Shown here: piece by piece, positions 5,059 to 43,509 of the stretch
How positions within the stretch are numbered: position 1 is the first letter of the stretch
Layout: each line of letters begins with the position of its first letter
Origin: a virus
Reading direction: 5' to 3' (one strand)
IMG/VR virus record: IMGVR_UViG_3300035183_000829
Coordinates: 1 to 43,509 of that record
Length of the DNA: 43,509 nt
Position numbers and translations under genes: made by a program
The notes under the pieces: generated by a model
The model's input: only the letters and a program-made list of their open reading frames with translations
What the model was told of the DNA's origin: nothing
Database searches by the model: none

Positions 5059-6690
5059 TTACTCGCGATCTATGGCGTGAAGAATTTCTGAAACAATGTA
5101 GCTTGTTTGCAGCCCATCTTTGCCGGTTTGAAAGTAAAGATCAAACAATCCTGATGCAGCGTATGCATCAAGATCTGTCTCTGATATGTGGTCAGTTGCG
5201 GTACGCCAAGAATCGGCACGAGACTTGCGTTCCTCTTCAGGGGCTTCAAGCCGCACCCGAATCACATCAACAAGCCCACTTTCTTCAAGATCATCGAACC
5301 CTCTGAACTCATTGACGAATCTGCAGTCATCAATGATAAACACGAGACTATCGGGCTTTGTTGAGGTTTCAATAGTCTTCATTATTTTGTGGCGTACAGC
5401 GTTGACCCAAACATCCTGACCCTTGGTTTCCCGACCCCATTCTGTACCAAACCACTGAAGCATAGCTCCTTCTTTTTTGAGAACTGGTATGCCGTAATCA
5501 GCTGCCACCGCCAAAGCGGCATCGTGCATTTTATAGATCACGTCAGCGAACTTGAGGGTGACTGGGGTTAATCCAGATTCAATAATGGTTTTCTGAAGTT
5601 GGCTGGCTGTTGTAGAGTTATGTGTTATAAAACCATTAGCCAAAAGATACAAATTTGTATCATTGTTGATTGAAATATCATAAGTTTCAGCATCATAAGC
5701 TTCTGACACGGTAAACATAACCCCGCTGGGGTTTTTATTAGATCGGCCAGCTAAGTCTTCGTACTCATCTTTCCATTTTTTTCTTTCGCAGACAGTCGGA
5801 AGCTCTCTTAAAATAGATTGGGTGTATTTATTTTGACCTATCCTTATGATATATACAGGTCCATTTTTATATTTAGGCCTATTGTCAATATATATTTTAG
5901 CGTCAAATTGAAATAAATCCAAAAGAAGTGTTTTTACTGCGTCGATAACAACCTTAGCTTGCATTCCGATTGATATGGTTAGCAATCCTCTTTTTCTCAT
6001 CCTGACGCACCCATCCGTATCAATCAATCCAGCCAAGAGATCTAATTGAGATTGTCTATTCCATGATTTTACTTCATTGATATCTAATATTTTTTCATGT
6101 GCTTTTAACCCCTTGCACCACTTGTTGTAGTATTCAAGGCGACTTGGTGACTGTATTCTCCAGTTAAAGTTTTTTTCGTGTAGTTTTTTGTATCCTTCCG
6201 CACCGATTGAATTTGCAACTTTTTTAACCACCGACTCATCACTGCTTGAAATAACAACGCCGTTGATGGTGCAGCATCCATCCCCTAATAGGGCACCTAT
6301 GGCATAGGCTTCTGGAACATCTTTGTTTCCTCCGGGTATTTTAATAAAAGTCTGCAACAGCATATCCTTAGTATTAAAATCAGCAATGGCTTTTTCTTTT
6401 TTGATTTTTGTTTTGAAGTTGTATGACATGAAACGGTGGTCGATGGTAGCTGATACCAAAGTCTTATCCGACCAACTCAGATCTACGACTTTTTTAATAC
6501 CATTTTTATGAACATCAGTCACCTCACACTTAGACACCGTTTGGTCTGAGTTGTAGCCATAAACCTCGTCGCCAATCATTAAATCTTCTATTTTTTTTGA
6601 CCCGGTTGGTGTTTTAACTAATGTTCCAGCCTTAAGGCACTTGCCAGAGCCTTGCTTGCCAGATATCAGGATGACTTTTGCTTTTGACAT
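5059..6690 (-). CDS. Deoxynucleoside monophosphate kinase-like protein with a P-loop intein
   Basis: The mature host protein should be 202 residues: N-extein residues 1-17 and C-extein residues 359-543. The exteins join to give a Walker A motif, GKQGSGK followed by STTASQLQ. Downstream are the patterns LQWFGTEWGRETKG and FIIDDCRFVNEFRGF, like the phage dNMP kinase family (T4 gp1-like), which phosphorylates dNMPs for DNA synthesis. A related P-loop nucleotide kinase cannot be excluded. Residues 18-358 are an intein. The start has GAGG eight bases upstream of ATG at 6690. The gene is the last of an operon with the MazG-like gene and the broken small gene, a set that fits nucleotide-pool control. 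Confidence 0.85.
   Translation of the reverse strand: MSKAKVILISGKQGSGKCLKAGTLVKTPTGSKKIEDLMIGDEVYGYNSDQTVSKCEVTDVHKNGIKKVVDLSWSDKTLVSATIDHRFMSYNFKTKIKKEKAIADFNTKDMLLQTFIKIPGGNKDVPEAYAIGALLGDGCCTINGVVISSSDESVVKKVANSIGAEGYKKLHEKNFNWRIQSPSRLEYYNKWCKGLKAHEKILDINEVKSWNRQSQLDLLAGLIDTDGCVRMRKRGLLTISIGMQAKVVIDAVKTLLLDLFQFDAKIYIDNRPKYKNGPVYIIRIGQNKYTQSILRELPTVCERKKWKDEYEDLAGRSNKNPSGVMFTVSEAYDAETYDISINNDTNLYLLANGFITHNSTTASQLQKTIIESGLTPVTLKFADVIYKMHDAALAVAADYGIPVLKKEGAMLQWFGTEWGRETKGQDVWVNAVRHKIMKTIETSTKPDSLVFIIDDCRFVNEFRGFDDLEESGLVDVIRVRLEAPEEERKSRADSWRTATDHISETDLDAYAASGLFDLYFQTGKDGLQTSYIVSEILHAIDRE
5617..6639 (-). mobile_element. Intein with LAGLIDADG homing endonuclease (341 aa)
   Basis: In-frame insertion splitting the Walker A motif between Lys17 and the Ser/Thr position. 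Splicing residues are complete: Cys1 in CLKAGTLVKTPTG, a block-B-like ATIDHRF, terminal GFITHN, and Ser as the +1 residue. Two LAGLIDADG helices are visible, IGALLGDGCC and LLAGLIDTDGCV, each with an acidic residue. The element is therefore predicted to splice and to home. The intein is AT-richer and more Lys/Asn-rich than the exteins, which fits separate ancestry. The kinase cannot be active unless the intein splices out. Confidence 0.93.
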
Positions 6691-24844: not shown

Positions 24845-27800
24845 ATGGCAAATACGATAACATTGCGAAGTCCAGACCAGATTTTAGGTGAATTAGTCAG
24901 GGAACTCCTTGTTTCGACTGATATTTCTACAATTGCTGCTGGTAGCGATGTTATGACATTGCTTGAGGCTATCGCACAGAGTCAATTTGAGATAGAGGTA
25001 TCAGCTCTCAAAATTCTCGAGAATAGTGCTCTTGAGTCTTTGGTTGGTAGCTCTTTGGATAAAAAAGCTGAAGCTATTCGGTTACCTAACACTATTGGTG
25101 GGTACGGAAGAAAGCCAGCCTCTCAGGCTATTGGTCCTGTGATTATCGGATCTTCTTTTAAAAAGATCAGTTCAAAGCTCTATGCAGGCAAACCAGCACC
25201 ATTCTCTGGTTCATCTATTCTCTATCTCGAGAAGGCTGATTCTTTCCCCCCAACCGGCCAAATTTACATAGGTCGTGGAACTATTGATAGGTTTGAGGGT
25301 CCGATTGCGTATTCCTCTTTGGTCAACTCTGGGTCATTCTGGACAATGACCTTGTCCACATCTTTGACCAAAAACCACCTTCAGTCTGATCTTGTTGTCT
25401 ATGCTCAAGGCGGTGACAGAATTGTACCAGCTGGTACTGTGGTTCAGGTTCCAGCTAATAGCGAGACTCCAGCTGTTTCGTTCACAACTGTGTCCGATAT
25501 TTTGATTCCAGATGGTGAAGCTGAAGGTACTGTCAATGTGGCGTGTACTCAGTTTGGCGGTGTTGGTAATGCATTAGCGGGATCAATCAAAGTTTTCTTG
25601 AATGCTCCATTTCCTGGAGCTACTGTTACAAATGATACGTCATTTAGAAGCGGTAAGAATACTGAGTCTGACGAGGATCTCCGTCAGCGCATTAAGGCTT
25701 ACCCATCTACACTCTCAAGGGGTACAAGATCTGCTATTTTGGCGGCCATTCAGGGAGCCACGGATTCGACCTCAGGACGTACGATACAGTCGGCAGTTAT
25801 CTTAGAGCCGGTTGAGCCAGGAGATGTTGCCAGAGTCTATATTGATGACAATACAGGTCTAGAACCAAGCTTTGGTAAGCAGCCATACGAAATCCTTATT
25901 CAGAATGCTGCAGGTCAAGAGACAAGGTTTAGGACTGCTCAGTTCCCTATTACTCCGGCAACAATTGAGGGAGCTAACTTTGGCCCATTCTCTTTGACAA
26001 ATGGACTCACACTTACTGTGCATGTTGATGAGGTTGTGGAGACCTATTCAATCACCCCGTCAAATTATACAAACTTAATCTCGGCTACTGCTTACGAAAT
26101 CGCTCGTGATCTGAATAGCCAATCTAACATAGTTGGCTTCAGGACTATCGACAACGGCACTAGACTTGTCATGACAGATTTGTCTGGTACAGCAGAGGTG
26201 ATGTATGTTACAGCGGGTAACCTTCAAGAGATTTTGGGCATTCCACTAGCCGTAGTGCGGCCAATCTTTGTTTATAAGAATTCTGAGCTACTATCCTTTA
26301 GAGGTAAAACAGCAACACTTGAAACTAGAACTAAGAACTCCTGGAATCTCTCCGCTCTTGATATGACCGATGTTCGTGTCAATGTTGACGGGGTTATTCA
26401 GGAGTTCAGTGTATCAAACACTGACTTTTTGCCATATGGCACAACCATTTCATCAGCAACTATCAATCAGTGGGCTGAGGTACTCTCTACCAAATTAGCT
26501 GGCGTTAAGTTCACGGTATCCGGATCTGTATTGGTCTGGAGTAGCTGGCAGGACTTCTCTTCGGGCGGATATCTTGAGATTCTTGAAACCAAAGCTGACG
26601 GATCGCCGGCTGGGTGGATCAATGACGTGACCGGTATGTGGACTTCGGCAGCCTCGGGCGGTAAGCTTTCTGATAGAGGGTCCTCAAAAGATTATAAATT
26701 CAACAGGTTTACTGGCGAGATAAATCTCTTATCCAAGCCAGCTGCTGGTGATATTATCGAGGTTGGCCTTAGGGCAACAAGAGCACACATTAACTCAATC
26801 AAAACCACCTCCGGTTTAGTGTCCTTGGCCCCAAGTTTGACAACTGTAGGTAACTCTCGGTTTGTTGTGGCTTTCGATGGTGAGTTTGCCTTGCGTTCGG
26901 TTGCTGTTCCAGCTGGATCTCAATTCACACCAACCGAACCAGACCCAACAAATGCCAAGCACGTCATAAGAGCAACGGTCAATGTACCCGATGTCTTTTT
27001 GCATGCAAAAACAAACGATTGGCTTTATCTGATCAAAGACGTGTCGGCGGTCCCAGGTTGGGGAGCTAATGTTGAGGGTTTCTATAGGATCAAACGTAAG
27101 GGTAATGGTCTTTACTCGACAAACCAAGTGTTCAATACTTTGTCAGCCTCGACACAGCTTTTTTCAGGCGTAACAGCTTCTGTTACCAAAGATCTCAATA
27201 TTGTCAAAGTTACATCAACTTCGCATGGTCTCAAGACGGGTGATCTTATAACCGTAACAACCACGACTGCGATCGGCGGTATTTCATCTGCAAACTTGTC
27301 TGTTACCGATGCGCCAATTATTGTCCTTAGTCCTAATACATATCAGTACACTGCGCTGGCTACTGCCACCTCAACTACTGGTGGTACTCTTGACTCGATC
27401 GGGACTAACATAGTCACTGTGACACAGACTGCTCATGGCTTTTCTACAGGTGCTGAGATAAGCGTAACCACGGCTGCAGCTATCGGAGGTATCTCTGGTG
27501 CTAACCTTAGTGTGACTTCGGCCGCGATAGAGGTTATTTCTACAAATATTTATAAATTCAGGGCCTTAGCTGCCGCAACATCTTCCGCTTCTGGCACTCT
27601 CACGACAGTGACTTATCTGGCTGATACGTGGGTAGAATTTGAAGTGTCGGCTGTTCAATATGCCGATTGGTCACCCCTACTTGGTATTCCACAAGACCTA
27701 ACTTTGTTTATGGTCAATGTTTTCTTGTCAACAGCTACGCCACAGCTTGTTGATTTTGGAAACGCTGTATCCGCGGTTAGTATCGATCAGATAGTCAGCA

Positions 27801-30800
27801 TGATTAATGACAATATAGCTGGCGGAACTGCGGTTAAACTTAGTCCTCAGCAATTTCAAATCAGAACTAATAACTTCCAGGATGGTACAGTCGCTGTCTT
27901 GGCGGTTGTCGGCAATGCTAAAGCAATGCTTGAGGCTGCTATTGACACAAGTATTCAATCTCATACAGGTAACTCGATCTCTGGCTATACCCAAGGCGGG
28001 TTCCCCGTTGTTCAGTCGGTGTCGCTGCCAACCTCTGCATCATCTGGTTACCCAACAAGAACATATTTGTCGGTCGATAAGACCTTTGTTGATGTACTGG
28101 ATACACTACCTGATCCAACAATCAACGCTCCTTCCTTTGTGACAAGCTATCCAGAAGGATTCCAACATCTGTGGCTTACTGGCCGTCAATCTGGTATAGT
28201 TGGCCGTGTATATAACAACCAAACAACTGCACCGTTTACTGGTATCCTTCGTGGCGGCGATGTTATCAGAGCCCTTGGCACTTCTGATACTGAGCAAACA
28301 TCGGCATCAAACCTCAATCGATACTCGAATTACGGTCTGCGCCTTCGTGACATACCACTAAACAATCATGACAGGTTGGTGGTGGAAATGGACCTGAACG
28401 CAACTGACAGAACCGTTGCTATCAGTATGGCAAAGCTAGCTAAAATCCTTGATATCGACGCCATCACTGGTTCTGGTATGGGGCAGGTGATTTCGTTCAG
28501 ACTTAAGGACCCAGAGGATTCGGATAAAGCTTTCTTTGATTCGACATCTGTTTATAAAGATTTTGACTTCCGTGATTTCAATATACTCACTAAATCAGTT
28601 GGTCTTTATCGTGAAGATGTGTCCGATAGAGCTTTGATCCTACGGTCTGTTGAGTACGGTGCCGCCGCAAGACTCCGTCTTTCAATACGTTTGCCTGAAG
28701 CGCCTAATTTGGCGGACTTTTCGATAACACACCTAAACAATTTCTCTGGGAATGAGGGCTGTCTCAATTTAATCGTAACCCTGCCAAGCCAGACACTCAT
28801 TGCTGGTTCGGGTGTTACATCTGGTTCGTACAAAGTAACAGCAACTGCGTCTGGTACTCTGTATGATTGGCGCATATCTGCTCCATCGATAAATTCTGGA
28901 AGCGAATATGTTGCCGGTAATGTACTTAACATCGCCGGTTCAAATTTGGCTGGCTCATATGAAATCATAGCATCAACTTACGGAAGCTACACTGCCGTTA
29001 CAGCAGCTGTGACTAACGGCTCCCCAACTGTAACCGTAACTCAACCATCGCACGGATATCAAACCGGCGATTTGGTTACGATTTCTGCTAGTTCTGCTAT
29101 CGGTGGAATATCAGCAATCGATTTGAGCCAGGCCGCAACCGAGATCACAGTCTTGAATGCGAACACATTCACATATGTAGCAGGTGCATCGGCTACATCG
29201 TCAATCAATGGTTCGCTTAACTCGATCACTGGCGGATCGGTTACAATCAAAGCTCCCGGTTCCGGTGGTCTTGCTCCTTCGGCGATGTATGATGCTGGAA
29301 CGGCTCCTATCAAATCGTGGGCTTTGTTACCAAAGACTTTGGCTGATTTGGCAACCGCCATTACGGCATACTATCCAAATGCACCTGTGGCAACTGGTGA
29401 GGCGATCGGTACAAACATTCTCACGAGTCCGATAGCTCACCCAACTTACATAGTTTACCCAGCTTCGTCGGCGTACACTGGATCGGATATGTCAGGGGCT
29501 TTCAATCATCATTCCTTCTCCACCAAATTTTCTGGTGGTGCTAGTATATGGCAGTATGACAGCTCCAACCCTCTTTTGAACAATATTAAGGCAACTGTTC
29601 AGACGGTGGAGTCTATATTCCCAACGACCACAGATGCTCTTGGAACGACCTACACGCCTATCAATGAAGAGGTGCTGATTGTTCCATCGAACACCAAAAC
29701 GCTAGCTTCTTGGTTGGCTTTCAAGGCGTCTTCATCGCTTAACATCTTGGCTGCAATTGAGCGGGTGAACGGAGATAACTCCATATCCCTGGCATCTAGG
29801 GAAGACGGCTCTAACGGCGCGGTCAATGTGACTGGTGTTGCTGCAAACTCTGTTGTGTCGGCTGTAATAGGCAACGGCTCAACCGACGGTGACGCATCCA
29901 AGGTAACGATTCTTAACGCGGATGCTCGGTCAATCATGCGCAACTCTGTAGTCAGAGTAACAAATTCTATCGCGTCTGAAATCCTCAGAGCTTACAGAAA
30001 CATGCCAACCGGAGCCAGCATTACATCAGCTAATACTACCAATATTAACAACTACTTCCGGGCAACGAACTCGCTAAAGTACATCAGGGTTAATGCCAAT
30101 TCTGGTCGGCTCATCTTCCTTCGAAACGGTCAGGGAATTAGCCAGACCGAACCGCTTGATGATGGCAACATCATCACACTCACCTCGCTCGGTGGCGGAC
30201 TTGTGCAAGTAACTTCAGCAATTGGCTCGGGTGTGGTTGGCAGCGGTAAACTCTCAGCTCGCGTCGGCGATATGATGTATGTTCAGCCAACAAGCCCATT
30301 CCCTATTGATGTGAAGTGCAAGCCAATACCAGCTACTGGTCGCACCGATAGTTCAAACCCAGAATACCTTGGTTATCCTGTTGTCCATGTGATTGATGAC
30401 AGTAATATCGTCATAATTGCGCCAAACATAACAAGCTTTGGCGCGACTGTTTTAGCTGACACTGCAGCTGTCGGGTCGAGAGAGCTCGTGTTCTTACCAG
30501 CTGTTTGGAACGAAAAGAACATCCGAACCAACCATGCTGAAGGTGCCAAGTTTGACGCACTTGTGAATAATAATAAGGCGTATTATTTGGTAAAAACTCT
30601 CGGTGGTGGTATGATGTCGGTTTGGCTGCAGAACTCTTCTGCTGAATCTACGGACACAATGCTGCTTGATACTATGTCAGTTTCGACTGATGATTACGCT
30701 GTATTCGGTAATGGCTTTGATCCGGCCAATCAAGGTATCATGAGGATAGTTGCTCATAACGGTAGAAACCACTTGATTGTTCACAATCCAAATGGCGGGA

Positions 30801-31786
30801 AAGACGAACTCGTGGACCCAACCAATGGTGATAGGATTTGGCGAGTAGGCCCTCTTGAGGATGGTGTTGGTCGCCAACTCAGAATCATATCCGGTGACTC
30901 GGTTAAAATTGGCGATCTCCTTAGGATATCTACGCCGTCTGATTCGGCTCAGTGGTTTAACTCGAGCTTCTTTGGATCGTTTAAGATTACTGGGATTGGT
31001 CTGCAGGCTATCGACTATACCGGAGCATCGTTGCCACATACAACCGCAAGCGGGACATATGACAACAACGAGGTATGTCCTTTTATTGATTTTGATTTTG
31101 TCTCTGCTCCAGTTGCGGTCACAGATTCATCCAATAACCCGGTAAGCCAGTTTGTCGTAGGTAACAACGCATCTTCAATTGGTTTCACTGAAGGTACACC
31201 ATTTAGTGTGTTCAGGCTCGTCGCTGGTCAAGCTGTTGATCCGCAGAATGCTGAGAACTCCACGCTCTTTTTGGTTCCAAAGATTAATACACAGAAGATT
31301 TCTGCTTCGTTTGGTACGTCGATTGCGTCTATCAATAAGATCGGGTTCAATGAGCAGACCTATATCGGTATAGATGGCTACAAGACTCATGCTGGTCCTG
31401 TCCAGCTTGCCCATAGGATCATCGACGGCCTACCTCAGAACACCGTCTTGTATCCAGGTGTCAAAGCGGCGGGTGCGGTTGTTGAAGTTCAAACTCCGTT
31501 GATTAAGTCGATTAGTATTAGTTTGTCGGTAAGTCCAAAAGATGGTGTGACGCTGAACAGTATTTCTGACCTGGTCAAGGCTTCGATTGCTGACTACGTC
31601 AATTCTCTTGGTGTCGGTAAAGATGTGGTCTTATCTGAAATCATCAGGGTTGTTCAGAGTTTGCCCGGCGTGTTTAGTGTGCAAGTTCTTTCTACACTGC
31701 CAGTAGCCGATGATGGTAAGATAGTGGTGGCCGACCAAGAGAAGGCGTTTATCTTAAGCATCACAAAGGATATCTCAATTGGCTAA
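24845..31786 (+). CDS. Giant baseplate wedge protein, J/gp6-like (2313 aa)
   Basis: Baseplate J-like wedge protein enlarged by inserted domains. The N-terminus (LRSPDQILGELVRELLVST, then AIAQSQFEIEVSALKILENS) and residues ~265-330 (SGKNTESDEDLRQRIKAYP, STLSRGTRSAILAAI) are typical of the family. The C-terminal ~120 residues also fit, with SISISLSVSPKDGVTLNSIS and VLSEIIRVVQSLPGVFSVQV. Ordinary members have 300-700 residues, so about 1800 residues are insertions, mostly beta-rich. Three are copies of a 61-residue module (residues 789-849, 859-919, 1398-1458) around AIGGIS. It may form the outer baseplate and carry adhesion or fibre-docking domains. AAGGGG lies nine bases before ATG. The frame is unbroken throughout, and the end overlaps the HNH gene by eight bases. 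Confidence 0.83.
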   Translation: MANTITLRSPDQILGELVRELLVSTDISTIAAGSDVMTLLEAIAQSQFEIEVSALKILENSALESLVGSSLDKKAEAIRLPNTIGGYGRKPASQAIGPVIIGSSFKKISSKLYAGKPAPFSGSSILYLEKADSFPPTGQIYIGRGTIDRFEGPIAYSSLVNSGSFWTMTLSTSLTKNHLQSDLVVYAQGGDRIVPAGTVVQVPANSETPAVSFTTVSDILIPDGEAEGTVNVACTQFGGVGNALAGSIKVFLNAPFPGATVTNDTSFRSGKNTESDEDLRQRIKAYPSTLSRGTRSAILAAIQGATDSTSGRTIQSAVILEPVEPGDVARVYIDDNTGLEPSFGKQPYEILIQNAAGQETRFRTAQFPITPATIEGANFGPFSLTNGLTLTVHVDEVVETYSITPSNYTNLISATAYEIARDLNSQSNIVGFRTIDNGTRLVMTDLSGTAEVMYVTAGNLQEILGIPLAVVRPIFVYKNSELLSFRGKTATLETRTKNSWNLSALDMTDVRVNVDGVIQEFSVSNTDFLPYGTTISSATINQWAEVLSTKLAGVKFTVSGSVLVWSSWQDFSSGGYLEILETKADGSPAGWINDVTGMWTSAASGGKLSDRGSSKDYKFNRFTGEINLLSKPAAGDIIEVGLRATRAHINSIKTTSGLVSLAPSLTTVGNSRFVVAFDGEFALRSVAVPAGSQFTPTEPDPTNAKHVIRATVNVPDVFLHAKTNDWLYLIKDVSAVPGWGANVEGFYRIKRKGNGLYSTNQVFNTLSASTQLFSGVTASVTKDLNIVKVTSTSHGLKTGDLITVTTTTAIGGISSANLSVTDAPIIVLSPNTYQYTALATATSTTGGTLDSIGTNIVTVTQTAHGFSTGAEISVTTAAAIGGISGANLSVTSAAIEVISTNIYKFRALAAATSSASGTLTTVTYLADTWVEFEVSAVQYADWSPLLGIPQDLTLFMVNVFLSTATPQLVDFGNAVSAVSIDQIVSMINDNIAGGTAVKLSPQQFQIRTNNFQDGTVAVLAVVGNAKAMLEAAIDTSIQSHTGNSISGYTQGGFPVVQSVSLPTSASSGYPTRTYLSVDKTFVDVLDTLPDPTINAPSFVTSYPEGFQHLWLTGRQSGIVGRVYNNQTTAPFTGILRGGDVIRALGTSDTEQTSASNLNRYSNYGLRLRDIPLNNHDRLVVEMDLNATDRTVAISMAKLAKILDIDAITGSGMGQVISFRLKDPEDSDKAFFDSTSVYKDFDFRDFNILTKSVGLYREDVSDRALILRSVEYGAAARLRLSIRLPEAPNLADFSITHLNNFSGNEGCLNLIVTLPSQTLIAGSGVTSGSYKVTATASGTLYDWRISAPSINSGSEYVAGNVLNIAGSNLAGSYEIIASTYGSYTAVTAAVTNGSPTVTVTQPSHGYQTGDLVTISASSAIGGISAIDLSQAATEITVLNANTFTYVAGASATSSINGSLNSITGGSVTIKAPGSGGLAPSAMYDAGTAPIKSWALLPKTLADLATAITAYYPNAPVATGEAIGTNILTSPIAHPTYIVYPASSAYTGSDMSGAFNHHSFSTKFSGGASIWQYDSSNPLLNNIKATVQTVESIFPTTTDALGTTYTPINEEVLIVPSNTKTLASWLAFKASSSLNILAAIERVNGDNSISLASREDGSNGAVNVTGVAANSVVSAVIGNGSTDGDASKVTILNADARSIMRNSVVRVTNSIASEILRAYRNMPTGASITSANTTNINNYFRATNSLKYIRVNANSGRLIFLRNGQGISQTEPLDDGNIITLTSLGGGLVQVTSAIGSGVVGSGKLSARVGDMMYVQPTSPFPIDVKCKPIPATGRTDSSNPEYLGYPVVHVIDDSNIVIIAPNITSFGATVLADTAAVGSRELVFLPAVWNEKNIRTNHAEGAKFDALVNNNKAYYLVKTLGGGMMSVWLQNSSAESTDTMLLDTMSVSTDDYAVFGNGFDPANQGIMRIVAHNGRNHLIVHNPNGGKDELVDPTNGDRIWRVGPLEDGVGRQLRIISGDSVKIGDLLRISTPSDSAQWFNSSFFGSFKITGIGLQAIDYTGASLPHTTASGTYDNNEVCPFIDFDFVSAPVAVTDSSNNPVSQFVVGNNASSIGFTEGTPFSVFRLVAGQAVDPQNAENSTLFLVPKINTQKISASFGTSIASINKIGFNEQTYIGIDGYKTHAGPVQLAHRIIDGLPQNTVLYPGVKAAGAVVEVQTPLIKSISISLSVSPKDGVTLNSISDLVKASIADYVNSLGVGKDVVLSEIIRVVQSLPGVFSVQVLSTLPVADDGKIVVADQEKAFILSITKDISIG
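27209..27391 (+). repeat. 61-codon tail module, copy 1
   Basis: Begins VTSTSHGLKTGDLITV, centre AIGGISSANLSV, end YTALATATSTTGGTL. Exactly 183 bases, in frame. Confidence 0.85.
27419..27601 (+). repeat. 61-codon tail module, copy 2
   Basis: Begins VTQTAHGFSTGAEISV, centre AIGGISGANLSV, end FRALAAATSSASGTL. Exactly 183 bases, nine codons after copy 1. Confidence 0.85.
29036..29218 (+). repeat. 61-codon tail module, copy 3
   Basis: Begins VTQPSHGYQTGDLVTI, centre AIGGISAIDLSQ, end YVAGASATSSINGSL. Exactly 183 bases. Confidence 0.85.
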
Positions 31787-32444
31787 GTGGATTGGTAAGG
31801 TTTGTAGCACTGAATCATGCGGAGGTAAAATCCGATGCATAGGTTTGTGCTCAAAATGTTATAGCAAACATTTAAGGTTGAAAAATCCAGAAAAATACAA
31901 AGATCGCGACAAGGAAAAGTACCAAAAAGGTAAAGATAGAATATCAAAAAGAAAAAAGGATAAATACAAAGAGAATCCAGAACCAGCTAAGCAACGAGCT
32001 AAGAACTATAGGAAAAACAATCCTGAAAAAAAGAAGATCGCTGATGCTGTGTATAAAGAGAAAAACAGAGAAAAACGCAAGCCTTTAAATAATCAATATA
32101 TGATCAACAGAAGGCGATCGGATGAGCAGTTTAGATTGATAGGTGTTTGTAGGTGTCGTATTTATAAAGCTTTAATAGAGCAAGATGTCGAAAAGCAGAT
32201 GCCGACTAAAGAGCTTATTGGCTGCAGCGTGACGGATCTTAAAAAGCATATTGAGTCTAAATTTAAGGATGGGATGGGTTGGGAGAACTACGGTCTGTCC
32301 GGTTGGCATATTGATCATATCAAGCCATTAAGTTTGTTCGATCTTTCCGATCCGGTCGAGCTTTTAAAGGCGTGTCATTTTACTAATTTACAGCCATTAT
32401 GGGCCAAAGAGAATTTATCAAAGGGCAATCGCTATGACGGATAA
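31779..32444 (+). CDS. HNH homing endonuclease (221 aa)
   Basis: Free-standing HNH endonuclease. The C-terminal catalytic part (residues 175-217) reads GWHIDHIKPLSLFDLSD, then HFTNLQPLWAKENLSKGNR, with His177, Asp179, His180 and Asn203 as expected for an HNH core. The N-terminus has a Cys cluster (Cys9, 14, 20, 24, 27: CIGLCSKCYSKH) that may be a zinc ribbon. A very Lys-rich DNA-binding middle follows (KEKYQKGKDRISKRKKDKYK). The start is TTG at 31779 with AAAGGA eight to nine bases upstream. It overlaps the wedge gene before it by eight bases and the wedge gene after it by 11, so it sits without any spare DNA between two structural genes. Its Lys/Asn-rich, AT-rich coding differs from its neighbours. 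Confidence 0.9.
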   Translation: MAKWIGKVCSTESCGGKIRCIGLCSKCYSKHLRLKNPEKYKDRDKEKYQKGKDRISKRKKDKYKENPEPAKQRAKNYRKNNPEKKKIADAVYKEKNREKRKPLNNQYMINRRRSDEQFRLIGVCRCRIYKALIEQDVEKQMPTKELIGCSVTDLKKHIESKFKDGMGWENYGLSGWHIDHIKPLSLFDLSDPVELLKACHFTNLQPLWAKENLSKGNRYDG

Positions 32445-34944
32445 TACAAATCTTAGTGCCCGAATTGAGAGATTCGTCCCCCAACACTTCCTTGAAGTGC
32501 TTGGGAAGAATTTGCCCGCTCTTTTGAAGGCTATCAACTCGTCAAACGCTAAGGCTGAGGCCCAGGTGCAGGCCTGTATTGATAACCTTTTCTTATCCAC
32601 TGCAAACGGAAAATATCTGGTCCAGCTTGGAGAAGAGCAGGGTTTCACGATGCCTGCCAACTCTGGTCTCGACCTGAGAGCCTATCGTGTTTTGGTGCCT
32701 ATCATGGTATCCAATCCAAAGCAGGTTCGCATCAGTATAAACGAGCTGATTCAGGCTTTCTACGGATCTGAAAGAACAAAACCGTCAATTGAATCAAGTA
32801 TATACAGCCCTTACTCTTTGGCCGATGGGGATGATTTGGTTGTCACGACCGAATCCGGGTCCGTGGATCTGTCTGTTCTGGCTAATCAGGTTTCCGACAT
32901 CACAAGTGTCTCTGCTCAAGAGTTAGCTGCTATTATAAACTCGTCCCAGTCCATCGTCCTTGCTCAGGCGGTTACCGATCGAGCGGTTGGTCTTGATTTT
33001 GTAAGGATATCAAGCAATACCCCAGGATCTGGTGCCTTTATTAGGGTATCTGGTGGAACGCTTCAAAATATATTGAAGTTCCCGAATGTATTAGCAACCG
33101 AAAACACCACGGGAACAACTTGGAATATCACAAGAACATCTCTTCTTAATGACGAGGTGAAGTTCACTTGGAACGGCCTCGGTACTAACCCTAAAGTCTA
33201 CCTAGCAAAAAAAGATGATGTGGTTACTATACGCGGCCTAGTTGACGGAGTAGCAGATTTTTCTCTTCTGAATGGTTCGTATACTGTTGTTGACTCTGGT
33301 TATGATTATTTCATTATCCGGAATGATCGCTTTGATTATGTGTCTGCCGTATTGACGCAGAACATGACAACAAATATTGTCTTTACCGAAAACCGCAATA
33401 TCACCATTTTTGATAGAGATGAGTATGCACTCAGCTCTGAAACAACCGATCAGACAATTACCATCACTGTCCCAGCTGTACCCCCATTGGCAAGACGCTT
33501 CCTTTCTGGGTCCGCACATCTGCGAGGCGGTGAGTATAAAGTTATTGATTTCACCAGGAGCTCGGTACAAATAAGCACTGGTTCTACTGGAGCTGTACCC
33601 AATCAGGATAATCAGTTTGTGTTGAGTAATCCGTATCAGAGATACGACTTCAAGCTCAAACACTATAAAACAATACTTGTTGACACTGATACCGTCACTC
33701 CGACGTACCTCATGGAAACCGGTAATGATGATTATGCTGTATTTCCATATACATCCAGTACAAACGTAAGCACTGACCCTATCTATGGCTCGATCGATTC
33801 TGATGAGTATAAGATGACTTTTCCGTACCCTCACGGCCTTCAAAAGGGTTGGGGGTTTACGATTGACTCGGCAATTGGCATCAGTAATATAACTTCGTCT
33901 GATTTGAATTCGGAGCATGTCACAAAGGCTGTTCTTGATAAGAATAATATTAAGTTCACAATGAAGGATACATCCGGTGTTCCGAAGGTATTCGATGGAA
34001 TAGGTTGGGCCGCTCTAGCGGCTATTCCAACAGCGCCGTGTGATGTGATTCGTTATACCGACTTCCAGCCTGATGGTGCGGATTTTTATCTACAATTTCC
34101 ATCCTCATCGGCCAGGATAGCAACCGGCCTAACACCTGGAACTACATTTCGATTAAGTACGTCACTTGGTACTGATGTCGATCCGTATTTTGCTGGTATA
34201 CTCCGATACACACTATTGACTGTCACCTCGGCCACAGGCTCGACAGTCAATTTCTCTCTTGGTCAAGGGCCGGGTGGAACCGGAACCGTCATCACCGGGA
34301 TATCGGGGAGAAGATCTGGGTATTTTGGTGGCACAGTGAACTATCGCTTGGATAAAACAAGCCCCTATAATCAAGAGCGGGTTTTTGCGGATCTGAAGGG
34401 TGTCTTCATATCCTATAGCGCATCACAAAATCCTGATTACATTGGCTCTTTCATTTTTGATCCGGTTGGCTCTCAAACTGCCTTTACCGTGTCTCAGTAT
34501 ATAGTCAAGCTGACTGATAACGTCCTAAAGGGTGATAACCTCACACTTCTTAAGGTAGATAGAACTACCATACCATCAGGCAAAGCCTTCCCGTCGTCAG
34601 GTCAAATTGTTTTAGATTATGGCAACGACAATCTCGAAGGCCCGATCAGATACTTTGCTGTGATCGATAACACAACCTCTGGCCAAATCCTTATCGATCC
34701 GGCTTATAGGTTCAAAAAAGCTCATGCAGTTGGCGCGAATGTTCAATATATACACGCTAACTCAGCCTACGCTCCGTCTGTTGATGGCGCTGATTATCCA
34801 GTTTACATTACAGGAACAACCGCAGCCAGAAATACCCTGTTCGCTCTGATCAGGCTTCTTGTGGCGTCGGGTATCTTTGTGGAATCAGACATAATTTTGC
34901 CGAATCTTAGGAATGACGACCTAGGTATCGTTCCGTTCGATTGA
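32434..34944 (+). CDS. Baseplate wedge or tail protein, I-like (836 aa)
   Basis: Large beta-rich structural protein following the J-like protein, the usual place of a P2 gpI-like wedge or fibre-linking protein. The N-terminal helical part (RFVPQHFLEVLGKNLPALLK, then ACIDNLFLSTANGKYLVQLG, EEQGFTMPANSGLDLRAYR) resembles proteins that attach to the wedge. After residue ~110 the sequence is a long series of beta stretches typical of tail surface proteins. The C-terminal helix FALIRLLVASGIFVESD ends the chain. ATG at 32434 overlaps the end of the HNH gene. The I-like assignment comes mostly from gene order. Confidence 0.6.
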   Translation: MTDNTNLSARIERFVPQHFLEVLGKNLPALLKAINSSNAKAEAQVQACIDNLFLSTANGKYLVQLGEEQGFTMPANSGLDLRAYRVLVPIMVSNPKQVRISINELIQAFYGSERTKPSIESSIYSPYSLADGDDLVVTTESGSVDLSVLANQVSDITSVSAQELAAIINSSQSIVLAQAVTDRAVGLDFVRISSNTPGSGAFIRVSGGTLQNILKFPNVLATENTTGTTWNITRTSLLNDEVKFTWNGLGTNPKVYLAKKDDVVTIRGLVDGVADFSLLNGSYTVVDSGYDYFIIRNDRFDYVSAVLTQNMTTNIVFTENRNITIFDRDEYALSSETTDQTITITVPAVPPLARRFLSGSAHLRGGEYKVIDFTRSSVQISTGSTGAVPNQDNQFVLSNPYQRYDFKLKHYKTILVDTDTVTPTYLMETGNDDYAVFPYTSSTNVSTDPIYGSIDSDEYKMTFPYPHGLQKGWGFTIDSAIGISNITSSDLNSEHVTKAVLDKNNIKFTMKDTSGVPKVFDGIGWAALAAIPTAPCDVIRYTDFQPDGADFYLQFPSSSARIATGLTPGTTFRLSTSLGTDVDPYFAGILRYTLLTVTSATGSTVNFSLGQGPGGTGTVITGISGRRSGYFGGTVNYRLDKTSPYNQERVFADLKGVFISYSASQNPDYIGSFIFDPVGSQTAFTVSQYIVKLTDNVLKGDNLTLLKVDRTTIPSGKAFPSSGQIVLDYGNDNLEGPIRYFAVIDNTTSGQILIDPAYRFKKAHAVGANVQYIHANSAYAPSVDGADYPVYITGTTAARNTLFALIRLLVASGIFVESDIILPNLRNDDLGIVPFD

Positions 34945-34947
34945 TCA

Positions 34948-34976
34948 TTGATTTCGGGCGCCTCGGGTGCTAAAAT
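34948..34976 (+). promoter_or_regulatory. Sigma70-like promoter for the tail fibre gene
   Basis: TTGATT (34948-34953), exactly 17 bases, TAAAAT (34971-34976) with extended TGC before it. It lies 41 bases before the ATG at 35018. The spacer contains the imperfect hairpin GCGCC-TCG-GGTGC. Confidence 0.72.
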
Positions 34977-35017
34977 CAGGTAAGCCTCGATACTATTTCA
35001 AATCCAAAGGTGTCATA

Positions 35018-38000
35018 ATGGCAGTTTTGAGCCGCGTCAATTTTACAGGTCAGCAACGTCTTGATTTGCCAGACCTTTTGGCCATGGAATCTTTTTCCGC
35101 ATTTGATTTGCGTACAATCATATCCGTTTTCTCTGGCGCTGATAAAGCTTATGTGATTCGTGGATTTCAAGTTGTCGGTAAGACTGGTCTCAACATTCAA
35201 ATATCCGTTGCCAACTCCGTCGTATTCAACCCACTTGATTCAGTTGGTAGTTTTTATACCGGTCTATCTGATGATGCTGACCTGTCCGTCGATTTACCTG
35301 CCGATCAGACCAACGTCTTTGTCGAGGCTGTATTCAAAAGTGTCACAAAGAACCCAGTCAACCGCGGCGTGTGGGACCCATTGGCTCTTGCTGGCGATGA
35401 TGTATCGGGTACTGAATTCTCTGCAGCTATCAATTTTGAGGCTCAGATTGAACTCAATATATCCGTAAATACGACCGGTTTTTCTGACGGAGCTATTCCT
35501 CTTTTAAGAGCTCAAACTTCGGCCAGTGCCATCGTTAGTATGATCGATTGTCGCCCACTTCTTTATCGACTCGGTACTGGCGGAACTACACCAGATCCAC
35601 TTAATAAATACAATTGGTCTGCCACAAGGGCCGAGCCTGTTCCGAGTGGAACTGGTGTTGGTGATGCGCCCGACAGCCCTTGGCGTGAAAAAGACGCATC
35701 AGGCTCAATTAACGACAAAGCCTTCAAATCATTCAAGGACTGGGCTGATGCCGTTATGACTCGGTTTGCCGAGTTGTCGGGTTCGTCTATCTGGTATCTA
35801 TCCGGAGCATCATCAGCCCCAATTCCCGGCACTTCGATAAATCAAATCTTTTTTGATGCGCTTGGCCACAATCTGCAACCAAGCTCGACATCTGCATTCA
35901 AATGGAAGAGCGTCGGCGGGACATATAGGCTCGCTGGTGAAGGATCTGTGGCTGTAAATGGAGTTACCGGACAAGTACACTCTGGTCTTATCCGATGGAA
36001 GTCCAATTATTCAAACCTTGAATGGCATTTGGGTGGAACCTATGCTGTAGGTACCAAGCGAAACTATACACCTGCAGGTGTTCGTTTTACATCTCCGGCT
36101 CCAATTGATGGCGGTAACGTATACCTCAAGCTCGAAAGAGAGATAGCCAAGGGATCTGGTGCTGATGTTAAATGGGCTGATAACTCAAGCTATCTCTCAT
36201 TCACAGCAAATAAGGCTGTTTCTGGTAATGCCGGTGACTTTACTGGGATCGCAATTGGCGATTATATCAGAAAAGAATCAGAGGGTTATGGTCGATACTA
36301 CCGCGTCACAAAGATGTGGGATGGCTCGACTCTCTATAACATCGCGAATGATGCCGACCAGAACCTTATAGCTACCTCAGCTGTTGTTGCCCTTGAGGTT
36401 GAAAACCTGACCGACCCAACCTTGGGTATTGTTGGTGGGGCTTCCACCGAACCATTAAGGTATTTCAGGTCGCGCTATTCTGACGCAGATTTGTTTGCTG
36501 ACACTGTTACAAATACGTATCTATACCAGCATGTTGATTATTATTGGCTCGGTCGTCGCCAAGGCAACCTTTTCTTCCTTCGTGGTTATGGAACTATGGA
36601 TCAAGGAGAAGAGGTAACTGCACTTGACGCTACATGGTCTAAGGGTAATCAAGGTGGCGGTAATGATTGTATAATTGAGCATGCGTACGACTCGGTTTAT
36701 GATGGCACTAACGGTTACTCTCTTAAGAGTGGTGCTACAACTACCCTTGTTACGATTCGTCGATTCAAGCGTGACAATACCATTGAGACTCCAACTCCTG
36801 CATCTGACAATAGCGGTGCTCTACTCACCTACACCATCAATGCGCCTGTCGGCCTCATGAATGTAGGTGATCAGTTGTGGGTGCGTCTATCTGACACAAC
36901 TGGCGGCACGCTCACAAACGGATCTGTTACAAACTCGACAGACGATCTCGATAATACGGATACACTTAGCAACCGTTGGGAAATCCGTCCAGCTGCAACT
37001 ACACCAGCAAGAACCTTTGATGACAAAGATATTTTCCTCTTGGCTCGCCGTATCACGGTTGGTGGTAATGCAGCGCTCTTGTTCTCTGATGGCTCTGTAT
37101 TAGATTCCTATGGTAAGTATATCAACAATCACCTTGAGATTCAGGGTGATGTTAAGTTGACTGGCAGACCGGTTACCTCCGCTCTGTTTATTCATCCAAC
37201 GATACAGGGTCAAATTGACACAGATGTCGCAAACTACTTCTACGACAAAAACCTCGGCGTTGCAGGTATCAGAACCTTTAGAATCGCAGATGATTCAATC
37301 ACTCTGGATGCAGCAGCTGATGTATCGTTTTTACCAAACATGGGACAAAAAACCCTCACGGTTGGTGGAGCAAGTTCAACCACGTACATCCCAGGCGACC
37401 TTATTGTCGCGGGTAACACGGTTGCTGCCCAGGTTTCTCAAATCCAGTCCGAAGATAAGCTCATAACCCTTGGAGTTGGTAATGCTCTTAATGGCGGGTA
37501 TAATGCGGGCCTGGAGGTGGCTGATGACACACAGACTGGCGTTTCCTTTAGCTCAAGCTCTGGTACGCCTGATATAGTCGTAACCTTCGGTTCAGCTCCA
37601 ACTTATTCGGTTGGCGATGTAATCGGTATCTCGGCTGCACTCGGTATCGGCGGCATCACTGCTGGTGAAATCGGTGGTGAGTATACCATTGTAGCCGGTG
37701 CTCCTGCATCTGCTGGTGAAGCTCAAGTATCCGGCTCTACCCTGATACTCAGAACTGCGGCTACAGCAACATCCACTGCATCATCTTCGACCACACCTCC
37801 GAAATCATTCAAGAGCGAATGGGCGTTCAAGGTAACTGGTGCCGATGGCAACCTGACTGGTTACACATCTTGGATGTTCCAGGCTAAAGGTGTCGCCACC
37901 AAACCAACCCTGACCCCTGTTGCGTCTTATGGAATCGTGCCAACAGCTCATTCCACAAATATGCTCGCGACTCGAATCCCGTTCGTCAACAATGACAATG

Positions 38001-40387
38001 CTGGTCCGGCTGGTGTTGACTCTACATTGAACTTCTCTGCCAACCTGACATGGGATGGTACGACTTTCTCAGTTGTTGGTAATACAAGCATTACTGGATC
38101 TATGATCCCGGGCGTTGACGATCTTTATGATATTGGTACGTCACTTTTGCAATGGCGTATGCTCTATCTTGGACCATCCAATGACTCCGGTATTACTTGG
38201 GGTGGAGATACCAATCTCTATCGCCCATCTGCTAACCTTCTTAAGACCGATGACTCGCTGGAAGTGACTGGCACTGCTTTCTTAGATACGGCGGCTGACT
38301 TCACTCAGCAGGCAAGCATAGTTTCTCCGTCACCTAATCATACGTCAATTTGGGCCTCGTCGGTTGACGGATTCATGTATCAAAGGACTTCGGATGGCGA
38401 TGTTAAGCTTCTGACTAACATTGAAGGTAATGTTTATGAAGAAACTGTTTATATCGTCTCTTCGCCAAGCGGCAACAACCAAGCCGCGCAGCTTTTGTCG
38501 CCTCCAGCTAACGTAACTCTGCCAAAAGACTCCAAAAAAGTTATCGGCACCACGCTTGTGGCGTCGGTTATCAACGGTTTCTCAACTGTAACCGTAACCA
38601 AGATCAATCACGGCCTCAGTACTGGTGATCTGGTAACTGTGACAACTGGTTCTGCGATCGGCGGCATCTCGGCTGTTGATTTGTCAGTAACTGGTGTGGC
38701 ATGTACAGTTTTAACGCCAAATACCTTCAGTTATACAGCTACGGCATCAGCCACATCGACAGCATCAGGAAACCTGGATAGAGTCACTGCACAAACAATT
38801 AGATACTATCTGGTTGGTGATAGAACTCTTGAGGTCTACCTTAATGGCGAGTTAATGACTCGCGGTGAAGATTATAACGAGTTTGGTGCAGCTAATACCA
38901 ACTCGAACATCATTACTTGGCTCAGAACGCTTGAGCTAACCGATATTGTTGTGTACCGCATAGACTCGAATGGTGGTCAGTACATCGTGAACGCCAATGG
39001 CGGGACAACACTTCAGGCCGCCTATTTGGCTGGTCCGATTATCAACACCTCGCCAGGAACTCCGGTCACCATCAATGGTACTGGTAAGCTCCTTGTTGTC
39101 AACGGTGATATGACTGTAACTGGCGTAATTGACCCAACTGGCCTGACACTCACACCATCCGCATCCGATCCGTTGCAGGCAACTGATTATGGATTCTGGC
39201 TTGATGCGACCAATCACTTGATTTGGAAGCGCGGTGTGTCTAGTCCAATTGATCTATCCCATGGATTTATCAGGAAAGATGGAGATGCTCTTGGTACGCC
39301 AACTGCACACATATCGTGGGGTGGTTTTAAGATAACAGGCCTTGCAGACGGTACATCCGCTCAAGACGCTGTCACCAAGGCGCAGCTCGATACGGTGGCT
39401 GGATACTTGTCTGACTATCTACCAAGAGATGGGTCTTTGTCTATGACAGCCAATCTCCCAATGGGTAATAACAGGATAACCGGACTCGCTACTCCGGCTG
39501 CACTTACTGATGCAGCCACAAAAGGGTATGTTGATTCATTTGATCGATATACTGGTGTGTACGTCACATTGACCAACAACACCGGATCGACTATTACTAT
39601 CGGCCAACTTGTGATTGTCAGCACCTCAGCCGCTGGTGAAATGACCTTAGCTGATGCAACCACACTCGCCTTGTCTGAAGGTACGGTTGGCGTCTCTGTT
39701 GAGAATATCTTGACTGGAACTCAAGGCAAGATCCAGCTCATAGGTAAGGCAACTGTTAATGGTGGTCCATTCACTATCGGCAAGCGTGTCTTCCTTAGTG
39801 AAACCCCGGGTCTCGGTACTTCATCGCCTCCAACATTGATTGGCTCAACTGTGTTTGTTATTGGTTGGGCAACTACGGCTACCGAAGTTGTCTTGAACCC
39901 GTACCTAGACAGTATTAACGACAATGTTTACGAAGAGTTGATGACTGTCGTGTCAGGCGCTCCGGCAAATGACAATGAAATCACTGGACCGGTAACGTCC
40001 GGCACGAACATTACCCTACCTCTTGACTCGAGAGACTCAAATACTACTCAAGAGTATCGAGTTGGTGATGGGTTGTTGCAGATATACCTTAATGGCGTAT
40101 TACTCACACCAACTGTTGATTGGACAGAAGTTGGTACTATTGGTACGCTTAGTTCTGTGATTCAGATCCAAAGAGATTTAGAGATCACCGACGAGCTAGT
40201 ATTCCGAATTAGCATCAGAGATACAGCATACTTCCCGGGCGCTGGTGGAGGTGCAACTCTTCAGACTGCGTACAACGCTGGTCCGACGATTACAACAACC
40301 ATGAGCAATCCAGTTACAATCAATGGCCCGGTTGGTACACAACTGCATGTTCTTGGTGATTTCCAAGTTGATGGATTAATCCTCTAA
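35018..40387 (+). CDS. Large tail fibre protein (1789 aa)
   Basis: Probable long tail fibre or adhesin. ATG at 35018 is chosen: AAAGG lies seven bases upstream and the promoter -10 box lies inside any longer frame from GTG 34967. The N-terminal ~200 residues (SRVNFTGQQRLDLPDLLAME, then SAFDLRTIISVFSGADKAYV) probably attach to the baseplate. The rest is beta-rich with fibre-type motifs: DIGTSLLQWRMLYLG, GGFKITGLADGTSAQDAVTK, ITGLATPAALTDAATKGYVD. A domain starting NVYEE occurs twice (residues 1138-1354 and 1636-1770). The first copy contains one 61-residue AIGGIS module also found in the J-like protein. A domain near residues 1520-1600 (NNTGSTITIGQLV) is shared with the next gene. Host-range determination is inferred. 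Confidence 0.78.
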   Translation: MAVLSRVNFTGQQRLDLPDLLAMESFSAFDLRTIISVFSGADKAYVIRGFQVVGKTGLNIQISVANSVVFNPLDSVGSFYTGLSDDADLSVDLPADQTNVFVEAVFKSVTKNPVNRGVWDPLALAGDDVSGTEFSAAINFEAQIELNISVNTTGFSDGAIPLLRAQTSASAIVSMIDCRPLLYRLGTGGTTPDPLNKYNWSATRAEPVPSGTGVGDAPDSPWREKDASGSINDKAFKSFKDWADAVMTRFAELSGSSIWYLSGASSAPIPGTSINQIFFDALGHNLQPSSTSAFKWKSVGGTYRLAGEGSVAVNGVTGQVHSGLIRWKSNYSNLEWHLGGTYAVGTKRNYTPAGVRFTSPAPIDGGNVYLKLEREIAKGSGADVKWADNSSYLSFTANKAVSGNAGDFTGIAIGDYIRKESEGYGRYYRVTKMWDGSTLYNIANDADQNLIATSAVVALEVENLTDPTLGIVGGASTEPLRYFRSRYSDADLFADTVTNTYLYQHVDYYWLGRRQGNLFFLRGYGTMDQGEEVTALDATWSKGNQGGGNDCIIEHAYDSVYDGTNGYSLKSGATTTLVTIRRFKRDNTIETPTPASDNSGALLTYTINAPVGLMNVGDQLWVRLSDTTGGTLTNGSVTNSTDDLDNTDTLSNRWEIRPAATTPARTFDDKDIFLLARRITVGGNAALLFSDGSVLDSYGKYINNHLEIQGDVKLTGRPVTSALFIHPTIQGQIDTDVANYFYDKNLGVAGIRTFRIADDSITLDAAADVSFLPNMGQKTLTVGGASSTTYIPGDLIVAGNTVAAQVSQIQSEDKLITLGVGNALNGGYNAGLEVADDTQTGVSFSSSSGTPDIVVTFGSAPTYSVGDVIGISAALGIGGITAGEIGGEYTIVAGAPASAGEAQVSGSTLILRTAATATSTASSSTTPPKSFKSEWAFKVTGADGNLTGYTSWMFQAKGVATKPTLTPVASYGIVPTAHSTNMLATRIPFVNNDNAGPAGVDSTLNFSANLTWDGTTFSVVGNTSITGSMIPGVDDLYDIGTSLLQWRMLYLGPSNDSGITWGGDTNLYRPSANLLKTDDSLEVTGTAFLDTAADFTQQASIVSPSPNHTSIWASSVDGFMYQRTSDGDVKLLTNIEGNVYEETVYIVSSPSGNNQAAQLLSPPANVTLPKDSKKVIGTTLVASVINGFSTVTVTKINHGLSTGDLVTVTTGSAIGGISAVDLSVTGVACTVLTPNTFSYTATASATSTASGNLDRVTAQTIRYYLVGDRTLEVYLNGELMTRGEDYNEFGAANTNSNIITWLRTLELTDIVVYRIDSNGGQYIVNANGGTTLQAAYLAGPIINTSPGTPVTINGTGKLLVVNGDMTVTGVIDPTGLTLTPSASDPLQATDYGFWLDATNHLIWKRGVSSPIDLSHGFIRKDGDALGTPTAHISWGGFKITGLADGTSAQDAVTKAQLDTVAGYLSDYLPRDGSLSMTANLPMGNNRITGLATPAALTDAATKGYVDSFDRYTGVYVTLTNNTGSTITIGQLVIVSTSAAGEMTLADATTLALSEGTVGVSVENILTGTQGKIQLIGKATVNGGPFTIGKRVFLSETPGLGTSSPPTLIGSTVFVIGWATTATEVVLNPYLDSINDNVYEELMTVVSGAPANDNEITGPVTSGTNITLPLDSRDSNTTQEYRVGDGLLQIYLNGVLLTPTVDWTEVGTIGTLSSVIQIQRDLEITDELVFRISIRDTAYFPGAGGGATLQTAYNAGPTITTTMSNPVTINGPVGTQLHVLGDFQVDGLIL
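38429..39079 (+). repeat. Fibre domain repeat A (217 codons, with inserted module)
   Basis: Starts NVYEETVYIV and includes NVTLPKDS, YYLVGDRTLEVYLNGELM, LRTLELTDIVVYRI, TTLQAAYLAGPIINTS and PVTING. It is homologous to 39923-40327, but about 82 codons longer because a block holding the 61-codon module sits between LPKDS and YYLVGDR. Confidence 0.8.
38594..38776 (+). repeat. 61-codon tail module, copy 4
   Basis: Begins VTKINHGLSTGDLVTV, centre AIGGISAVDLSV, end YTATASATSTASGNL. Exactly 183 bases, the same length as the three copies in the J-like wedge gene. Confidence 0.85.
39923..40327 (+). repeat. Fibre domain repeat B (135 codons)
   Basis: Starts NVYEELMTVV and includes NITLPLDSRD, EYRVGDGLLQIYLNGVLL, QRDLEITDELVFRI, ATLQTAYNAGPTITTT and PVTING. 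It is the short form of repeat A, without the inserted module. Confidence 0.8.
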
Positions 40388-41696: not shown

Positions 41697-43509
41697 ATGG
41701 TAACAGTGAGTAAGCTTTCGCGTCTTATTAACGGCGTACAGCGTCAGTTTGACTTTGCCGCTTCAGGCAATGTTTTTTGGACCGATTCTATCCAAATTGG
41801 CGCATCGAGCCCGGCCACACTTACCAAAACCATCCTGCTTAACCTGATTGCCCTTCAAAACGGCACAGATTTTGCTGATGGTACAAACAGCCATACCCAT
41901 GATGGTCGCTATTTCACGGAATCGGAACTCGGTGCAACATCTGGCACAACTGGTTCTGATCTTATCGGTGATGACAACACTTATACCAACTTTACCCCAA
42001 CCGCCACTACCGTGAAAGGCGCTTTGGCTGGTATCGACTCTGCACTGAGTACGGGTAATGGTAGAGTCAAAGTTACTTCTGCTGACACCACAGCTGACTA
42101 CCTGAACAACTCCATCACAGCTGGTGCCGGTCTTTCTAAGACTGTTGTCAACCCAGCTGGTGATGAAACTCTCGACCTCTCTGTTAATGTTGATAACTCG
42201 ACTATCGAAATCAGCTCTGATGTCCTCCGTGTCAAAGATGCTGGTATCACCAATGCCAAGATCGCTACGGGTATCGATGCTGCCAAGTTGGCAGATGGTT
42301 CTGTAAGCAACACCGAATTCCAATATATCGGCACCCTGACTTCTAATGCTCAAGATCAATTGGATGCCAAGGTAGCAAAATCCGGGTCCACTATGGACTC
42401 CGGCGCAAACATCACCTTTGTTGGTGGTGGCGAGGTTCTCGGCCTTCCTTCTACTCCATCCGCAGCTGGCGCAGCAGCTTCTAAAGCTTATGTTGACGCA
42501 GTTGCTCTTGGCCTTGCTCCTAAGAAAGCTGTCCGTGTTGCTACAACAGGACCAGGAAATTTGGCTTCGAGTTTTGAAAACGGCGATGTAATCGACGGAA
42601 TCACACTCGCAACTGGCGACCGAATCCTCATCAAAGACCAAACTACCGCATCTCAGAACGGTATCTATATCGTTAATGCCTCTGGTGCCCCTACTCGTGC
42701 AACTGATTTTGACTCCCTTTCGCCTATCGACGAAATTAACGGTGCTTGGGTTCCTGTACAATTTGGTACAGTAAACGCTGGTCGGATTTATGTTCAGTAT
42801 GGCGTAGTATCGACAATTGATACTGATGCAATTAACTTTGAATTCTATAACCCGATTGCTAGCCTTATCGGTGGCGACATGGTCACCGTTACTGGTTCGA
42901 CCATTACCCTTGACCTCGCTACCACTGGTGGTCTTGAGTCCACCAACGCTGGTGACGCAGCTGGCCAGCTTCGCATCAAACTCGAAGCTACAAACCCTAC
43001 TCTCAAATTCACCGGCTCTAACGAACTTGCTGTCAAACTCAACACTGATTCAACTGCCGGTAACATCTCCACAAGTGCAACTGGTCTCAAGGTTGACACT
43101 GACGGTGTTACCATTGAAACCGCTTCTAACGCTCTCCGGGTTAAAGATCTTGGAATCAGCACTGCCAAATTGGCAGATGCATCTGTAACTGCTGATAAAC
43201 TTGCCGCTGCAGTAGCCGGAAATGGTTTGACTGGTGGCGCAGGCTCCGCACTCGCAGTTGGTGCAGGCGACGGTATCACTGTTGCGGCTGACTCGGTTGC
43301 TGTTAACGTAAGCGATCTGGCTGGCTCAGGCCTTGAAAACGACGGAAATAACAACCTTCGCATCTCTGCCGCTGCTGCTGGAAACGGTTTGACTGGTGGA
43401 GCTGGCTCTGCCCTTTCGACCACTAGCGCTCCTGCCTTGGCTAAATTCGCTGGTGTTGCTGGTGAATCTTTCGCTGCCAACAAGACATATGCTGTTCGCT
43501 TTGCTATCG
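41697..43509 (+). CDS. Tail fibre or collar-type protein (3'-truncated by window edge)
   Basis: At least 604 codons, open to the window end. It starts MVTVSKLSRLINGVQRQFDF at ATG 41697, with AAAGG about nine bases upstream. Residues ~265-385 form a common phage tail domain: KAYVDAVALGLAPKKAVRVA, TLATGDRILIKDQTTASQNG, IYIVNASGAPTRATDFDSL. On both sides are beta repeats: VLRVKDAGITNAKIATG near residue 180 and ALRVKDLGISTAKLAD near 480. GNGLTGGAGSAL occurs twice near the end. Ala, Gly, Thr and Val dominate, as in trimeric fibres. It is transcribed from its own promoter. It is probably a second receptor-binding or structural fibre. Confidence 0.8.
   Translation, partial: MVTVSKLSRLINGVQRQFDFAASGNVFWTDSIQIGASSPATLTKTILLNLIALQNGTDFADGTNSHTHDGRYFTESELGATSGTTGSDLIGDDNTYTNFTPTATTVKGALAGIDSALSTGNGRVKVTSADTTADYLNNSITAGAGLSKTVVNPAGDETLDLSVNVDNSTIEISSDVLRVKDAGITNAKIATGIDAAKLADGSVSNTEFQYIGTLTSNAQDQLDAKVAKSGSTMDSGANITFVGGGEVLGLPSTPSAAGAAASKAYVDAVALGLAPKKAVRVATTGPGNLASSFENGDVIDGITLATGDRILIKDQTTASQNGIYIVNASGAPTRATDFDSLSPIDEINGAWVPVQFGTVNAGRIYVQYGVVSTIDTDAINFEFYNPIASLIGGDMVTVTGSTITLDLATTGGLESTNAGDAAGQLRIKLEATNPTLKFTGSNELAVKLNTDSTAGNISTSATGLKVDTDGVTIETASNALRVKDLGISTAKLADASVTADKLAAAVAGNGLTGGAGSALAVGAGDGITVAADSVAVNVSDLAGSGLENDGNNNLRISAAAAGNGLTGGAGSALSTTSAPALAKFAGVAGESFAANKTYAVRFAI

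Follow-up and report, generated by a model that had tools for sequence, protein, structure and literature searches.

Why would one small protein module recur in both the baseplate and the fibre of a tailed phage? The question is raised by the tail operon of a 43.5-kb virus record, the whole of which is referred to here as the window. An earlier note, made from the sequence alone, had described the repeat as a module of FCCH-like type shuffled between the wedge and fibre proteins. It is highly probable that the copies represent one small all-beta barrel domain of about 80 amino acids, of the endosialidase beta-barrel (PF12195) or E1-FCCH (PF16190) kind, and that this domain is an insertable unit. 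The whole explanation, in which such an insertable barrel serves as an accessory surface module in three tail proteins, is probable.

The modules lie in three neighbouring genes (Table 1). The largest encodes a Baseplate_J-like protein (Baseplate_J, 64.4 bits in Pfam; baseplate wedge subunit, 7e-27 in PHROG). No matches were obtained when this whole protein was scanned as a single query against viral contigs, a scan with its N-terminus found no relatives among the genome contigs, and an NCBIfam search gave nothing relevant. The second gene encodes a tail protein with 48-52% identity to its orthologues in two related contigs, L030 and L031. The third encodes a fibre-like protein whose orthologue in L030 (3959-7372) is 50% identical across 1039 amino acids, and whose N-terminus resembles a gene of Myxococcus phage Mx1. 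Similarity to PHROG head decoration and tail fibre proteins is seen in part of the fibre gene and also in an ORF truncated at the window end (41697-43508, plus strand). Between the J-like gene and the next tail gene lies a 221-aa ORF (31779-32444, plus strand) that is endonuclease VII-like (PHROG, 2e-8) with an HNH-like end. The two tail genes directly adjoin in L030 and L031 with no ORF between them, so this ORF appears to be a homing endonuclease gene that stands free within the tail operon. Elsewhere in the window, a 543-aa ORF on the minus strand (5059-6690) contains intein-splicing and LAGLIDADG domains followed by a deoxynucleoside monophosphate kinase match, and is probably a kinase split by an intein.

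Table 1. Module copies, their host genes and the module-free host domain in the window.
Feature	Position	Strand	Gap-free 68-codon core	Remarks
Baseplate_J-like protein (baseplate wedge), 2313 aa	24845..31786	+		hosts J1, J2 and J3
J1	27164..27400	+	27197-27400	J protein residues 774-855; profile match; AlphaFold barrel
J2	27401..27631	+	27407-27610	J protein residues 849-929; tandem with J1; profile match
J3	28991..29248	+	29024-29227	J protein residues 1383-1468; profile match
Tail protein, 836 aa	32434..34944	+		between J-like and fibre genes; hosts T1
T1	33814..34038	+		diverged copy; sequence-profile and profile-profile matches
Fibre-like protein, 1806 aa	34967..40387	+		hosts F0 and F1
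F0	37541..37792	+		diverged copy; profile-profile match; AlphaFold model
F1	38537..38785	+	38582-38785	83-aa insertion into a fibre domain; 38549-38806 by profile match
Second copy of the F1 host domain	39923..40231	+		module-free; empty site 40033/40034

Four copies, three in the J-like protein and one in the fibre, are clear, which confirms the repeat as it was originally reported. They share 41-60% protein identity pairwise, with no gap over 68 codons. Their pairwise BLOSUM62 local scores are 144-201, whereas none of the 300 composition-preserving shuffles made for each pair scored above 64. Thr, Ser and Ala are abundant in the copies, but there is practically no chance that their similarity is a matter of Thr/Ser-rich composition: the shuffle controls refute such an artefact, conservation across phages is seen in the columns H, G, GGI, N and F/Y, and the predicted fold is confident. 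The stated unit of exactly 183 bases is a segment of the gap-free core and depends on where the cut is chosen; the core itself spans at least 68 codons. Other measures of module length are the J1-J2 spacing (70 codons), a tandem spacing of about 86 aa in the related contig L006, and the fibre insert itself, which comes to 83 aa by comparison with empty sites.

A fifth, diverged form had been suspected near 37580-37790 in the fibre gene. This copy, F0, is real by both its profile-profile score and its AlphaFold model. A profile built from relatives, containing neither F0 nor T1, matched F0 with a profile-profile E of 9.9e-9 and a score of 45.9; the highest score among 60 column shuffles was 18.3. 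T1, a sixth copy absent from the first description, was recovered by a sequence-profile search whose model excluded it (E 4.7e-5) and by profile-profile comparison (E 1.7e-7; score 39.6, shuffles at most 14.2). Both diverged copies are kept in orthologues of related phages, T1 in two of them. The total thus comes to at least six copies in three neighbouring tail genes. A further candidate, T0 (residues ~225-325 of the 836-aa protein), was rejected, its profile-profile score of 18.0 barely exceeding the shuffle maximum of 16.9.

Two Pfam families compete for the name of this module. E1_FCCH matches the best window protein at 26.8 bits and single copies at 14-20 bits, J3 being the best match, all below the cut-off of 29.5; L110, a relative in the same module family, exceeds it at 39.4 bits. 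Among 18 family members scanned with Pfam, E1_FCCH was found in nine and End_beta_barrel in seven, the latter always under its 35-bit cut-off (best E 6.6e-5). The first profile matches in the PDB, weak by themselves, were the FCCH domain of UBA1 (2lzj, top, E 0.034) and the phi92 endosialidase. The family model also matches residues 443-499 of the K1F tailspike, which fall in the End_beta_barrel domain (424-506) that is itself inserted in the propeller (313-754). Columns conserved across phages follow the pattern H-G-x3-G-(D)...G-G-I...N-x-F/Y.

Structure prediction supports the same assignment. For J1, AlphaFold was run on an alignment of four sequences; the best model reached a pLDDT of 93.2 and the other four of the five were poor. 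The F0 run used 15 sequences, and each of its five models had a pLDDT of 88-94 (best 93.7); this alignment included other module copies, which favours a shared fold. The two models have identical strand order and the same short helix. The module is accordingly modelled as a compact all-beta barrel and is predicted to be an independent folding unit, as the idea of a discrete foldable unit had anticipated. In Foldseek searches against the PDB, the top eight matches of J1 were endosialidase barrels (TM 0.69-0.72, probability 1.00), followed by V-/F-ATPase barrels and UBA1, whose FCCH ranked below the endosialidases (probability 0.95, TMq 0.52). The top match of F0 was the phi92 endosialidase (TM 0.56, probability 0.98). 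No PDB match of either model reached an E of 0.001. Searches against predicted viral proteins returned mostly unnamed tailed-phage proteins, with some tailspikes and fibres. The FCCH-like label thus stands: the profile matches the copies, below the cut-off in the window and above it in L110, and the barrel fold agrees.

Relatives of the module are widespread. A scan with the module of one relative, with matches confirmed, detected them in at least 219 virus contigs. They lie in phage tail, fibre and head-associated proteins; among the host proteins are a tail fibre that has an S74 chaperone, PHROG tail protein 376 and PHROG virion structural protein 3287. One module also makes up a large part of several stand-alone small ORFs of 116-184 aa (L008:5920-6267, L011:3722-4273, L013:5833-6369 and L015:5791-6342).

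The fibre gene shows how such a module sits in its host. F1 is a single clean insert that follows 'VTLPKDSK' and precedes 'TAQTIRYY'. Its host domain exists in three module-free versions, one towards the C-terminus of the same fibre protein and two in the relative L036. One of the L036 positions has orthologous flanks, with GEDYNEFG and TGVIDP in common, so this position represents an empty site in a relative. L030, the closest relative having the fibre gene, lacks the entire C-terminal fibre region and is therefore uninformative on F1. The 1719-aa fibre of L036 (2956-8112; also in L037 and L038) carries two other FCCH-like modules near residues 515-640, and none was detected at the corresponding place in the window fibre.

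Copy number also varies in the J-like protein. The protein of L007 has the same three copies as the window, and that of L006 has five, the extra two standing in tandem at the J3 site of an otherwise collinear protein. The more distant J proteins of Mx1 and L009 have no J1-J2 at that place, though both contain diverged modules at later positions; their sequence around the place differs too much for a clean empty site to be called. The clean insertion of F1 and the tandem gain in L006 bear out the view of a transferable unit.

How old is this mobility? A search for DNA repeats detected none as long as 40 bases at the module copies, and identity at codon third positions among J1, J2, J3 and F1 is 19-34%, near random. 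The repeat is therefore a protein-level and old one. Given four copies spread over two genes 9 kb apart and an endonuclease gene lying in between, one might suspect that recent recombination or gene conversion is now carrying the module from wedge to fibre gene or back. This is very improbable: recent shuffling at the DNA level is rejected by the missing repeats and the saturated third positions, and J2 forms a position-specific clade (100/95) of the window copy and its orthologues in L006 and L007, hence is orthologous in three phages.

A tree of 36 modules, all of them short sequences, places every J copy, F1 and three long-branched others on one side of a 97/98 branch, apart from 21 of the 24 outside modules. 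The nearest matches of F1 are J3 and J1 copies from the same phage group. Both observations speak against independent acquisition, by which the J and fibre modules would each have come from other phages carrying the same family rather than from gene to gene within one lineage. Independent acquisition does draw support from the breadth of the family and from an AU test in which J-only and J+F groupings were not separated (p 0.18-0.21), and we regard it as less likely than not. The tree suggests a common source for the fibre copy and the J copies, whether by passage from J to fibre or by descent of both from one pool; sequences this short do not settle direction or donor. The copies would have originated long ago through insertion and tandem duplication, with divergence following. 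The proposed shuffling between wedge and fibre is thus sustained insofar as F1 groups with the J copies, but it is old and not ongoing in this genome.

The K1F tailspike offers the closest guide to function. Its barrel is reported to be one of three polysialic-acid sites and to affect host discrimination, and S460 is listed among the residues (PMC12632334, preprint). At the equivalent position most module copies have Ser or Thr. UBA1, which is not known to bind sugar, has Ser there too, so that this residue is no binding signature. Sugar binding by the module is plausible by homology, given the polysialic-acid site in the related barrel of K1F. The module would act as an accessory unit inserted into virion proteins, either between their domains or in loops at the surface. 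In the assembled tail its copies would stand outward and touch host-surface polymers, most likely glycans, through weak, multivalent contacts, in the way the K1F barrel does with polysialic acid. A surface-binding role is put forward tentatively on this basis.

The barrels may instead be pure spacers, stable units that lengthen or stiffen the baseplate and fibre proteins, bind no ligand themselves and are accommodated by permissive loops. Copy number indeed varies freely among relatives (three versus five in J, none versus one at the fibre site), the family extends beyond receptor-binding proteins to head-associated and other tail proteins, and no ligand site is conserved besides the structural positions of the motif. 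Against a spacer role stands K1F, the best-studied homologue, with its reported polysialic-acid binding. Taken by itself the spacer reading is a fair contender that falls somewhat short of an even chance, and adhesion and pure spacing are about equally likely. The fibre domain with and without its barrel is a natural insertion for a direct test of the two.

Among known systems, the End_beta_barrel domain of the K1F and phi92 tailspikes is the closest, by best fold match (TM ~0.7) and by the placement of the family model on K1F, whose barrel likewise sits as an accessory domain inserted into a phage tail protein. The window copies differ in being multiple and in residing in baseplate and fibre proteins without propeller or stalk; a Pfam scan of the window proteins found neither a sialidase propeller nor a tailspike stalk. 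They also have an extra AIGGISxxxLS stretch and score below the Pfam cut-off. E1_FCCH of ubiquitin-activating enzymes, named for the first catalytic cysteine half-domain, a name that only marks where the domain was first described, shares the HGxxxGDxV motif, weak-to-significant profile matches and a similar barrel. The module proteins differ in lacking E1 adenylation or catalytic domains (no E1 enzyme domain was found in the window host proteins by Pfam scan) and in having no ubiquitin link. The J-like protein of Mx1 (OR576727) is a related wedge protein of ~30% identity with two weak module copies, much diverged and without the J1-J2 pair at the window's site.

The domain kind is thus already known, in Pfam under two names, as an old, promiscuous accessory module of phage-particle proteins. 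The literature search, with most subscription papers outside its reach, found no paper describing FCCH-like barrels in phages. What is new is that six copies occur in three genes, that one of them is a clean insertion, and that the FCCH-like phage motif is linked explicitly to the endosialidase barrel, a link through which a recurring HGxxxGD...GGI...NxF motif in many unannotated phage virion proteins gains a fold and a solved relative. A bolder extension, unlikely at present, would unite E1-FCCH-like and endosialidase barrels in a large unnamed class of phage-particle adhesion barrels, which phages would copy among their tail, fibre and head proteins and so adjust weak glycan binding in the manner of Ig-like domains. 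The modularity of tail proteins is well established (PMC10684548), and Ig-like domains found promiscuously on phage virions, together with shuffled fragments of tail proteins, offer a parallel (PMC10684548, and Fraser et al. 2006 cited there). The fold of Ig-like domains is another one: an Ig profile matched one of the 18 family members (Big_7 at 0.0026), and no Ig structures were among the leading Foldseek matches of J1. The phage Ig-like domains nevertheless share with the barrel the habit of a small beta domain scattered over unrelated virion proteins in variable copy number.
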